From positions 124,001-188,000 of the forward strand of contig JAENYK010000006.1 in assembly GCA_016841825.1 (NCBI GenBank): DNA of 64,000 nt. The letters are read 5' to 3'. The notes under the pieces are model-generated. The model made no database searches. It was given only the letters and a program-made list of their open reading frames with translations, and had not been told where the DNA came from. The position numbers were made by a program, and so were the translations under genes. The stretch is from Halothermothrix sp. (GTDB lineage Bacteria > Bacillota > Halanaerobiia > DY22613). This document shows positions 7,649-60,276 of the stretch, in pieces; position 1 is the first letter of the stretch, and each line of letters starts with the position of its first letter.

Positions 7649-8014
7649 ATGACCAAAAAACAATGGAGTGAAGCCAGGATTAAGTTATGTGTGGATATTC
7701 CGGAAGAATTAGCTAAAGGAATTGAGATGATGGCTAATTTGAAAGGAATTTCTAAAGAGAGATTACTTCAATTTTGGATTGAAGATGGATTAGAGAGGGA
7801 TGAGTTACGTTTTGAACGTCTGCTGCTGTTTGCAGAAATCTCTGAGGATTTAGATGAAGAGGGCTATCAACTGCTTACCAGATTAAAAGGCAAGTATTTT
7901 GATGAAGTAGCAGATGAAGAAAGAGGTTTAGACTCCTATCTGGTTAAAAGTCGAACTCTACATAATCAATATCAGGCTACTTCCAGTCCATCCAGTATTT
8001 ATGCTATCAAATAA
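7649..8014 (+). CDS. unidentified 121-aa cytoplasmic protein
   Basis: Soluble, charged protein with no signal peptide or membrane segment. The N-terminal 45 residues (VDIPEELAKGIEMMANLKGISKERLLQFWIEDGLER) look like a ribbon-helix-helix unit: a strand followed by two helices with a 'K..ISKE.LLQ' turn. That suggests DNA binding, but I cannot assign a family with confidence. The C-terminal half is Glu/Asp-rich. ATG 7649 was chosen over the in-frame ATG 7640 because GAGAGGAGA overlaps 7640. It is monocistronic, with its own promoter and a terminator shared with the convergent topoisomerase gene. Confidence 0.65.
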   Translation: MTKKQWSEARIKLCVDIPEELAKGIEMMANLKGISKERLLQFWIEDGLERDELRFERLLLFAEISEDLDEEGYQLLTRLKGKYFDEVADEERGLDSYLVKSRTLHNQYQATSSPSSIYAIK

Positions 8015-8020
8015 TTTATT

Positions 8021-8060
8021 ATATAAGATAAGACCCCGAAGAAGGGGTCTTATCTTATAT
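8021..8060. terminator. bidirectional terminator between convergent genes
   Basis: ATATAAGATAAGACCCC pairs with GGGGTCTTATCTTATAT around a short loop. It lies between the + gene ending at 8014 and the - gene ending at 8080, with A/T-rich flanks on both sides. Confidence 0.8.
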
Positions 8061-8079
8061 ATAAATTATTTTGTTAACT

Positions 8080-17544: not shown

Positions 17545-17688
17545 TTTAACACACTTCAGAAGGATAGTCTCCCGGCCTCTATTGGTGGGAGTTTATATAA
17601 CTAAAACAGTGTTTACTCAATGGAAGTACAAACTCCCTTCTGAAGTCGTTAATCTAAAGAATTACCAACTTGCTGTTAATGCGATTGT
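17545..17688 (+). repeat. structured intergenic repeat, copy 3
   Basis: Lies between the metal ATPase and its arsR-type regulator, in sense orientation. Inner hairpin CTCCC..GGGAG is intact, and TTCAGAAGG (5') pairs with CCTTCTGAA (3'). The final hairpin (TTACCAACTTGCTGTTAA) has mismatches. It ends about 33 bp before the arsR start. No clear promoter lies directly upstream, so this copy is probably read through from the ATPase transcript. Confidence 0.75.
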
Positions 17689-17721
17689 ACAAATCAGAGA
17701 GTCTAAAAGGAGGTAATGGCG

Positions 17722-19997: not shown

Positions 19998-20201
19998 GTG
20001 AGCAAATTATCTGACTATGAGTTTGCAGGATTGAATGGAATAGAATTAAAAAAGATTAAAGAGCTGGAAGATGAAATCAATCGCAAGTTGCGTGTAAATA
20101 GTGGGCGAGAGATATATCTAATGGCATTTCAGAACCGGGAAACAGATCTCAATCAATCGGGTGAAATCAATGATCAGGCCGAACCGACTTATAATTTATA
20201 G
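19998..20201 (+). CDS. unidentified 67-aa protein
   Basis: GTG start at 19998 behind AAAAGGAGGTAAT. The 67-residue product (starts MSKLSDYEFAGLNGIELKKI) is soluble, with a helical Lys/Glu-rich first half. No family recognised. Its 3' end overlaps the start of the c-type haem protein by 32 bp, so the two should be translationally coupled and co-transcribed. Confidence 0.6.
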   Translation: MSKLSDYEFAGLNGIELKKIKELEDEINRKLRVNSGREIYLMAFQNRETDLNQSGEINDQAEPTYNL

Positions 20202-20637
20202 CATTGTGGCTCTTGTATTATTGGGAGTGGCAGTATATAGGTCATTAAATAGTCCTGAGCCTGATCCTCCACCCAAAGTGGAGATAGATCTTCCCAGAGA
20301 AGGTGCCAATCCTGGTATGTTGAACGATAATTCAGGACCCAATGAACAGAATAAAGATTTTGATGGAGATGATCCAGAACTGGCGGGATACTCTTTTGAT
20401 TTCGATATTGAGCCGATCATGACGGCCAGATGCTTTAGTTGTCATTCAAAAGAGGAAAAAGTAAGGCAAAATCTAGTTTTCTATGATTATAATACGGTTT
20501 TGAAACAAATCATTCCCGGTGATTTGAACAGTACTCTGCCCAAATCTATAGCTAAAGATGGTAGTATGCGGCACTACCTTAGCGATGAAGAAGCCAATCT
20601 GATTAGGGAATGGATTTCCAAAGGAGCCAGGCAATGA
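20170..20637 (+). CDS. membrane-anchored single-haem c-type cytochrome-like protein
   Basis: The 155-residue protein has an N-terminal membrane anchor (about 7-24), a Pro/Asp-rich linker (about 28-75) and a small domain with one haem c attachment motif, RCFSCHSKEE (CxxCH). The context PIMTARCFSCH, VPGD-like IIPGDLNST and the ending LSDEEANLIREWISKGA match the PSCyt1-type cytochrome c domain (PF07635). It should face the periplasm with haem attached outside the membrane. No haem-lyase or Ccm gene is nearby. ATG 20170 was chosen over GTG 20161 because TCGGGTGA overlaps the GTG. A c-type haem protein is unexpected in a fermentative anaerobe; electron partners are unknown. Confidence 0.72.
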   Translation: MIRPNRLIIYSIVALVLLGVAVYRSLNSPEPDPPPKVEIDLPREGANPGMLNDNSGPNEQNKDFDGDDPELAGYSFDFDIEPIMTARCFSCHSKEEKVRQNLVFYDYNTVLKQIIPGDLNSTLPKSIAKDGSMRHYLSDEEANLIREWISKGARQ

Positions 20638-20650
20638 AGTTAAAAAAGTA

Positions 20651-20750
20651 AAAACCCCCCGGAATTATTGCTTGGTCAGTTTATAGAGGTTTGAACCTTT
20701 GACGGACTACTCTCATAAACTGATTTAAGGAGTACTGAAGGAGGGGTTTT
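20651..20750 (+). ncRNA. candidate structured leader that can hide the SD of the GNAT gene
   Basis: Three nested stems are visible. AAAACCCC (20651-20658) pairs with GGGGTTTT (20743-20750). TCAGTTTAT (20676-20684) pairs perfectly with ATAAACTGA (20715-20723). AGGT-TTGA-ACCT (20687-20698) forms the tip. The outer 3' strand contains the Shine-Dalgarno (AAGGAGGGG) of the gene starting at 20752, so closing the outer stem would block translation. It does not match any riboswitch class I know. Nested pairing is seen in the sequence; regulation is inference. Confidence 0.55.
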
Positions 20751-20751
20751 T

Positions 20752-21228
20752 ATGATCCAGGTACGGGAAGCAGACTTGGATGATTTGGAAGTAGTTCTAG
20801 AACTATGGTCAGAATTTACCCAATATCTTTCGAAAATGGAACCGGACTTTTTTCAGCTGCAGGAGGATGCCCGGGAGATTTATCGTCAGATTTTACATGA
20901 ACAGTTACAATCCGAACATACTCTGGTTCTATTGGCTAAAGATTCAGCTAAAGCCATTGGATACAATCTAACTTCTATTCGTTATCCAACTAATGTATTC
21001 CTCCAGATACCCTATGGTCACATCAGTGACCTTTATTTACGTCAAGAATTCCGGGGTCAAAAGGTAGGTCAACAACTCGTGAAGATAGCTATCGTCTGGC
21101 TGAAAAATCGTGGTATTAGCAAAGTCAATGTTAATCCTTTTTTTACTAGTTCACAAGTAGTAAAATTTTGGAAAGATATGGGTTTTGAAAGATATGAGAT
21201 GGGGTTTAAGTCCAGTATTGAATGTTAA
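20752..21228 (+). CDS. GNAT-family N-acetyltransferase
   Basis: Transfers an acyl group from acyl-CoA to an amine of an unknown acceptor. The 158-residue length fits one GNAT domain: IQVREADLDDLEVVLELWSEF opening helix, central strand GHISDLYLRQEFRGQKVGQQL with the CoA-binding RGQKVG loop (R/Q-x-x-G-x-G/A), and the terminal VKFWKDMGFERYEM strand. SD AAGGAGGGG lies within a strong potential hairpin that begins 100 bp upstream, suggesting translational control. The substrate cannot be told from sequence. The next feature downstream is the cobalamin riboswitch, unrelated in direction of control. Confidence 0.85.
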   Translation: MIQVREADLDDLEVVLELWSEFTQYLSKMEPDFFQLQEDAREIYRQILHEQLQSEHTLVLLAKDSAKAIGYNLTSIRYPTNVFLQIPYGHISDLYLRQEFRGQKVGQQLVKIAIVWLKNRGISKVNVNPFFTSSQVVKFWKDMGFERYEMGFKSSIEC

Positions 21229-24254: not shown

Positions 24255-24396
24255 TTTAACGACATTTCAGAAGGATAGTATCCCAGCTTTTATAAGTAGA
24301 AGTATAACTAAATGATGTTTATTCAGTGGAGGCGCAAATTCTCTTCTGAAGTCGTTAAACCTAAGAATTAACAGCTTGCTGTTAATGCGACTTTAA
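24255..24396 (+). repeat. structured intergenic repeat, copy 4
   Basis: The best-closed copy. TTTAACGAC pairs with GTCGTTAAA and TCAGAAG with CTTCTGA (5' strand 24255-24273, 3' strand 24342-24358). The alternative hairpin TTCAG..CTGAA uses the same 3' strand. The final hairpin TTAACAGCTTGCTGTTAA (24368-24385) is perfect. It ends about 38 bp before the start of the 54-aa gene and lies downstream of a good promoter. Confidence 0.8.
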
Positions 24397-37642: not shown

Positions 37643-38096
37643 ACTAATCCCTCCTAATTGTTTCTGTTAATTTAGACGATTCTTCATATTATTAAAGAAA
37701 CCTCCTAAGTTAAGAGAATTTTATAATAAAATCAAAATCAAGAGATAAAAATATTTGCTAATTTATAGTGTGTATTTAAAAAAATACAGCAAAAGTTTTT
37801 TACGAAGAGACTTATTAAAATTATAATATATCTGTGTGTAGAAAGTATTTTATATCTTTTTTTATTTGAAACTGTGAGAAGGAATAAAAACTTAAAAAAT
37901 CAGTTTTAACTGATAATTCCTCAGATAGCTATCTTTCTATACGTATAATAGTATTTTCTATGTTTTTAGTCATAGATCAGTTTCACACCAAAGGCGGGTT
38001 TTTTAGAACCCGCCTTTGGTGTTTTTTATATAGAAGATGCTTCATTTTGTGACAGCTCTTTATAAATTTTCTAATGCTACAATGAAAAATATCTCA
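37643..38096. other. 454-bp A/T-rich gap with an unexplained + terminator
   Basis: Contains the upstream region of the permease pair and a strong hairpin at 37985-38022. I see no convincing gene. Candidate -10 sequences (TATAAT at 37828 and ATAATA near 37946) lack a clear -35. This stretch may hold a small RNA on the + strand ending at the hairpin. Confidence 0.4.
37985..38028 (+). terminator. strong intrinsic terminator with no obvious + gene
   Basis: ACACCAAAGGCGGGTT pairs with AACCCGCCTTTGGTGT (16 bp), followed by TTTTTATA on the + strand. The - strand side is not T-rich, so the T tract points to + transcription. LysM-gene transcription arriving on the - strand may also use it, weakly. 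Confidence 0.7.
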
Positions 38097-39204: not shown

Positions 39205-39333
39205 TTTAACGATATTTCAGAAGAGAAGCCCCCCGGTCTCTACAGGTGGGAGTACACATAACTAAATAGTGTTTTACTTCAGTGAAGGTACGAATCCTCT
39301 TGCTGAAGTCTTTAAACTTGATGCGACTTTAAT
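39205..39333 (+). repeat. structured intergenic repeat, copy 5
   Basis: Starts TTTAACGATATTTCAG about 32 nt after the predicted start of transcription. The hairpin ACTTCAG..CTGAAGT is perfect, while the 5' strand also pairs with the 3' strand through TTCAG..CTGAA and TTTAA..TTAAA. The inner hairpin reads CCCCC..GGGAG. The final AACAGC hairpin is cleanly missing between AAACTTG and ATGCGAC. Placed in the leader of the transporter operon. Confidence 0.78.
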
Positions 39334-47874: not shown

Positions 47875-47928
47875 AAACAGGGCTGTATTACGATGGTTTT
47901 TCATAAAGCATCGTAATACAGCCCTGTT
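47875..47928 (-). terminator. 19-bp hairpin terminator of the polysaccharide deacetylase gene
   Basis: AACAGGGCTGTATTACGATG pairs with CATCGTAATACAGCCCTGTT around GGTTTTTCATAAAG. On the minus strand the stem is followed by TTTTTGC, which suits the deacetylase gene ending at 47940. On the + strand there is no T tract. Confidence 0.8.
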
Positions 47929-60136: not shown

Positions 60137-60228
60137 ATCTGATGCGCAAATTAGTATATTTGAAGTGCTGTTAGTCCGAAGAAGTGATTAATAGTGAAAT
60201 AAATAATAACAGTAATTTTTGAGATTAA

Positions 60229-60262
60229 CATAAAATCGCCCAGTTTTCGGGCGATTTTATGT
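60229..60262. terminator. terminator after the MATE gene
   Basis: AAAATCGCCC pairs with GGGCGATTTT around AGTTTTC. It lies 15 bp beyond the minus-strand gene end and fits its direction. Confidence 0.8.
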
Positions 60263-60276
60263 TAATAGTTCGAAAA

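Follow-up and report, generated by a model that had tools for sequence, protein, structure and literature searches.

How is a gene translated when its ribosome-binding site (RBS) is predicted to be folded into a strong hairpin, and what kind of element is that hairpin? The question is raised by the leader of a GNAT-family N-acetyltransferase gene (20752 to 21228, + strand; 158 aa) in a 64-kb stretch of Halothermothrix sp. DNA, the whole of which is referred to here as the window. The product of this gene matched Pfam Acetyltransf_1 (PF00583; E = 2.8e-12, 47.4 bits against a cutoff of 20.7) and reached the cutoff of no NCBIfam model, the best being AAC_6p_group_E at 38.9 of 140 bits. Upstream on the same strand, an open reading frame (20161 to 20637, with its stop codon TGA at 20635 to 20637) encodes a membrane-anchored CxxCH (CFSCH) protein, also of 158 aa, which we call haem-binding-like on the basis of two matches that both lie below cutoff (Pfam Haem_bd PF14376, E = 9e-4; LIC11213_lipo, E = 1e-5). 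This upstream protein was matched in 3 of the 61 genomes searched, its own included. On the far side of the GNAT gene, a cobalamin riboswitch (RF00174, 21318 to 21516, 75.9 bits) lies upstream of a Peripla_BP_2 (BtuF-like) gene.

Folding predicted that the leader forms one long interrupted hairpin, which runs from G20648 to U20753, comprises 40 pairs, and has an energy of about −39 kcal/mol. The stretch from 20649 to 20756 folded alone at −38.9 kcal/mol (z = −5.4), and a wider 181-nt stretch around the hairpin gave z = −3.2; in each case none of 200 shuffles (dinucleotide shuffles for the former) was as stable. Both stems named in a preliminary description of the locus are real: the outer stem pairs TAAAAACCCC (20649 to 20658) with GGGGTTTTTA (20743 to 20752) at 10 of 10 positions, and the inner stem pairs TCAGTTTAT (20676 to 20684) with ATAAACTGA (20715 to 20723) at 9 of 9. 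The AGGT/ACCT tip given there is present in the letters (20687 to 20690 and 20695 to 20698), but the minimum-energy fold has AGAG/CUCU and GUUUG/CGGAC helices in its place, leaving AGGT/ACCT as a possible alternative. In its predicted extent, the outer stem consists of GUAAAAACCCCCC paired with GG.GGGGUUUUUAU and takes in the first two letters of the GNAT start codon. Its 5′ arm, GTAAAAACCCCCC (20648 to 20660, + strand), contains the anti-Shine-Dalgarno (anti-SD) run CCCCCC at 20655 to 20660. Its 3′ arm (20740 to 20753, + strand) ends in five U residues that also make a short terminator-like U-tract, and the two arms stand about 84 nt apart. Between them, the inner helices (20666 to 20734, + strand) comprise UAUU and CUUGG helices, both additional to the two stems named earlier and placed between those stems, followed by UCAGUUUAU/AUAAACUGA, AGAG/CUCU, GUUUG/CGGAC, and a 9-nt loop. 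The Shine-Dalgarno (SD) sequence of the GNAT gene, AAGGAGGGG (20738 to 20746, + strand), is recognizable in the sequence, in the folds, and by comparison with an ortholog.

The proposal that this SD is buried in the outer stem was borne out by prediction, since the 3′ arm holds six of its nine letters in base pairs and the cost of opening it is the highest among 286 leaders. These leaders belong to open reading frames of at least 90 aa with a recognizable SD, taken from the window (64 kb) together with 400 kb of a single contig in the 5.08-Mb genome, and the zone from −13 to −5 was used for every one of them. Freeing that zone costs 17.1 kcal/mol in the GNAT leader, against a mean of 3.8 (standard deviation, 2.4) and a next-highest value of 13.0, and its SD zone has a perfect complement of 10 nt, likewise the longest among the 286 (next, 9 nt). 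When the upstream 100 nt were shuffled with the SD left in place, only 7 of 2,000 shuffles reached the observed opening cost. In a fixed frame from −110 to +10, the GNAT leader was second of 286 by energy and seventh by z, which indicates that a strong fold by itself is not exceptional here; what is exceptional is where the fold falls. Strong hairpins are not in themselves rare in the genome, and others in the window mark gene ends. Very stable hairpins at 8005 to 8076, 37986 to 38021, 47876 to 47928, and about 60210 to 60270 all occupy intergenic positions, with convergent genes on either side of three of the four, and are probably bidirectional terminators. For the GNAT leader, no SD-free fold was predicted within about 10 to 15 kcal/mol at 37°C. 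In the growing transcript, the probability that the anti-SD is unpaired was 0.85 when the 3′ end had reached 20740 and dropped to 0.17 at 20745 and to 0.0 at 20748, and thus the anti-SD would be free as the transcript lengthens and would capture the SD once the SD is made.

Conservation was assessed by comparing two genomes of the family, the second of which, G001, yielded the single GNAT ortholog found, at 51 to 52% protein identity. Besides the gene's own locus, there was one match of >50% identity among 151 genomes, and scans of genome contigs added none. In G001, the ortholog is accompanied by the same downstream gene (70% identity) and by a similar small gene upstream; the order of GNAT gene followed by Peripla_BP_2 gene is also kept. 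The segment from 19998 to 20637, whose two genes (the first of 67 aa, the second the 158-aa CxxCH gene) separate the small upstream gene from the GNAT gene in the window, is absent from that place in G001, and the haem-binding-like gene had no match anywhere in that genome. At the level of the leader, TGAAGGAGGGG of the SD is identical in the orthologous locus (L010). The region of the 3′ arm, over about 40 nt leading up to the SD, is weakly similar to the orthologous leader (1 of 1,000 shuffles aligned as well when the SD was left out), whereas the 5′ arm has no similarity to it (267 of 1,000 shuffles were as good). These results suggest that the SD-bearing arm is old and that the complementary arm is either new here or lost there. 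The orthologous leader folds ordinarily (z = −1.15; 21 of 200 shuffles as stable), and opening its SD costs 3.8 to 4.3 kcal/mol. A lack of conservation of the stems in relatives had been named beforehand as an outcome that would refute the preliminary interpretation; the single ortholog has neither a counterpart of the 5′ arm nor the occlusion, so that the interpretation is refuted as far as one ortholog allows. By prediction, then, the RBS-occluding hairpin is both strong and lineage specific.

Searches with a covariance model of the hairpin agreed with this picture. The model was built from the window and the same locus of the assembly, identical rows that amount in effect to one sequence, and it found only itself in the 151 genomes under strict filters that can lose weak matches. 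Run on the window together with L010 and L066, it returned two self-matches, one per strand, and nothing else, and within the organism's own genome the stem pattern was found at this site only. A dispersed palindromic repeat, MITE, or other mobile element was considered and rejected: the 12 matches at E ≤ 10 were the locus itself and 11 stretches of 14 to 24 nt with E values of 1.0 to 6.5. An antisense RNA was likewise rejected, the minus strand folding less well (z = −1.6; 8 of 200 shuffles). The window does hold a separate dispersed intergenic repeat of about 140 nt (341 to 462, 605 to 740, 17551 to 17689, 24262 to 24395, and 39212 to 39261), with terminal inverted repeats TTTAACGAC..TTCAGAAGG and CCTTCTGAA..GTCGTTAAA. 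This repeat looks MITE- or REP-like; at least 40 copies were matched in the genome (40 of 100 candidates scored), 12 copies were aligned, none was found in 20 related genomes, and no Rfam match to it was found in the window.

One feature at the foot of the hairpin had been overlooked in the preliminary description. A mini-ORF, ATG AAG TTA AAA AAG TAA (MKLKK*; 20634 to 20651, + strand), can be read directly in the sequence. Its start codon at 20634 overlaps the stop codon of the upstream gene (ATGA), and its TAA (20649 to 20651) falls at the base of the 5′ arm. An SD-like site for it, CAAAGGAG (20619 to 20626, + strand), falls within the end of the upstream gene, which reads ...AAAGGAGCCAGGCAATGA. 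A leader ORF with an SD that ends at or in the 5′ arm, as expected of an erm/cat-type attenuator, is thus found here. We recognized no drug-stalling motif known to us in MKLKK. Among the 286 leaders, an ATG mini-ORF that is led by an SD and ends in a tight zone (−115 to −80, picked after the GNAT case had been seen) occurred in one leader, the GNAT leader itself, under a 6-nt SD rule and in two under a 5-nt rule; anywhere in the leader, the counts were 6 and 12. None of the 284 gene ends of the called set combined a 6-nt SD with an ATGA mini-ORF of 30 codons or fewer, although 7 had such a mini-ORF without that SD; since none scored, this set evidently leaves out the gene upstream of the GNAT gene. 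The SD letters of the mini-ORF encode Gly-Ala, and the end of a related gene also encodes Gly-Ala with AGGAG letters, so these letters may be dictated by the protein sequence. With the zone chosen post hoc and the SD letters encoding a shared Gly-Ala, we regard the mini-ORF statistics as suggestive only.

The best reading of this arrangement, which we hold tentatively, is translational coupling or attenuation by an RBS-occluding hairpin, a known kind of control. The sequence, the fold energies, and the ranks are established directly, and from them we infer that the GNAT gene is repressed in the cell, that the mini-ORF is translated, and that coupling takes place. The 3′ arm, holding the GNAT SD, would block 30S binding, and the gene would be poorly translated on its own. 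Ribosomes from the upstream gene would terminate at TGA (20635 to 20637) and start again at the overlapping ATG (20634). After translating MKLKK, they would terminate a second time at TAA (20649 to 20651), where they would cover CCCCCC (20655 to 20660) and free the SD. That upstream ribosomes most likely restore translation is suggested by the anatomy and by constrained folding, for which ribosome footprint edges were assumed. With the edge at 20648, corresponding to the stop of the upstream gene, the SD cost was 14.9 kcal/mol compared with 13.4 unblocked; with the edge at 20658 to 20666, corresponding to the mini-ORF stop, it fell to 2.0 to 2.5 kcal/mol, less than the mean of the 286 leaders. 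By these folds, a ribosome at the stop of the mini-ORF would open the hairpin and one at the upstream gene's own stop would not. On the + strand from 20331 to 20883, inside of the hairpin included, no promoter-like match reached 9 of 12 consensus positions (weaker 8-of-12 matches were noticed by eye), which makes a transcript arriving from upstream plausible. Several observations count against the coupling reading. The only ortholog lacks the hairpin and has an ordinary opening cost. The mini-ORF was noticed post hoc, its SD letters coincide with the shared Gly-Ala pair, and some SD-led ATG mini-ORF is present in 12 of the 286 leaders under the 5-nt rule. Coupling would also have to span 100 nt from the stop to the GNAT start, a long distance if unfolding is not the mechanism. 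A more specific version, which we consider distinctly unlikely, is that the five-codon ORF, ATGA-coupled to the haem-binding-like protein gene, is a movable ribosome plug, a genuine attenuator setting acetyltransferase expression that could be tuned by, for example, lysine-tRNA supply or a ribosome-targeting drug.

The main rival to coupling, somewhat doubtful in our judgment, is that the hairpin is mainly an intrinsic terminator or attenuator that ends the upstream operon and overlaps the RBS, its G-rich 3′ arm and U5 lying on the RBS of a GNAT gene that is weakly read through or expressed from an unseen promoter. The stable stem is directly followed by GGGG and then UUUUU, its d'Aubenton-Carafa-type score is above zero at 5.6, and it shares a very stable stem and A- and U-rich flanks with the window hairpins at 8005 to 8076, 37986 to 38021, and 47876 to 47928. 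The placement of all four other very stable sites at gene ends or between genes, described above, also suggests that this genome uses long stems as terminators. Three of those hairpins, however, score higher by the same formula (56.5, 13.7, and 9.7) and the fourth lower (−33.5), and the leader hairpin was absent from a scan for short-loop terminators. The window terminators have short loops and are intergenic or at gene ends, whereas the GNAT leader hairpin is larger and interrupted, with about 84 nt between its outer arms and a U-tract of just 5 nt; it overlaps both RBS and start codon, and a gene begins immediately after it. The next rival, rather unlikely, is a neutral or nearly neutral quasi-palindrome. 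Here the 5′ arm would be of recent origin, template switching on the strand that carries the SD being one possible source, and the hairpin would have no selected role while still lowering GNAT translation. Such an origin would fit the nonconservation of the hairpin and the significant, though weak, likeness to the orthologous leader that is seen in the 3′ arm and not in the 5′ arm (1 of 1,000 against 267 of 1,000 shuffles), and a 10-nt perfect complement to the SD occurs once among 286 leaders. Against it, a single chance arm would not give a hairpin nearly as strong (first of 286 in opening cost; none of 200 shuffles as stable), and a strong SD has been retained beneath the block.

Both functions proposed in the preliminary description fared poorly. 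A riboswitch sensing the acetyltransferase substrate, or a protein-binding leader with the same role, is very improbable, even with its position over the SD and the distant similarity of the GNAT protein to aminoglycoside 6′-acetyltransferases (38.9 bits against a 140-bit cutoff). The earlier statement that the leader matches no known riboswitch holds: no Rfam match reached its gathering score, three matches to snoRNA and miRNA models (E = 0.03 to 4.7) each falling below it. The same result now weighs against a new class, together with the lack of a second copy, of a covariance-model relative in the 151 genomes, and of a near-energy SD-free fold; the predicted structure is a simple rod that lacks a junction, and no alternative comes close to it in energy. 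The published aminoglycoside riboswitches of resistance-gene leaders are themselves disputed, going by the accounts in PMC7588185 and PMC9410878. An RNA thermosensor opening on warming has in its favor an SD-occluding hairpin with an A-U-rich foot, and is fainter still as a prospect: SD pairing is predicted to be almost constant from 20 to 70°C, the mean unpaired probability of the SD going from 0.333 to 0.354 over this range, and opening is predicted to cost 5.5 kcal/mol even at 70°C.

The GNAT leader hairpin is not, then, a new riboswitch class. It offers instead a compact and directly testable case of how a ribosome-blocking hairpin could be gained in one lineage over a conserved SD, possibly together with the mini-ORF that would restore translation. 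If the relay from the upstream gene works, an upstream gene found in one lineage only can take control of an older neighbor; if the ribosome plug proposal were true, acetyltransferase expression would hinge on the translation of only five codons. Among the titles found in an open-access library, none reports a GNAT leader of this design. In cat attenuators, which we take to share this layout, the SD is likewise hidden in a hairpin that has a short leader ORF at its foot.

Two groups of known systems bear on the coupling reading. In phage f1 VII/IX and E. coli rpmI-rplT, as summarized in PMC12548453, the downstream RBS is occluded, as it is predicted to be here, and requires upstream translation that reaches the structure; by the same account, opening of the f1 VII/IX hairpin requires the upstream stop to be within the hairpin or close to it. 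The GNAT locus would differ from both, in that its upstream stop falls just short of the hairpin and the five-codon overlapping ORF would have to bridge the last 14 nt. In the GNAT leader, as in the erm attenuators outlined in PMC5118997, the SD of a modifying enzyme is hidden in a hairpin whose foot carries a short leader ORF. That account reads the high basal expression of ermB as disruption of the hairpin in cases where it contains stop codons. Unlike the leader ORFs of erm and cat, the GNAT mini-ORF is not free-standing and is coupled to a gene, and ordinary termination alone would open the hairpin.
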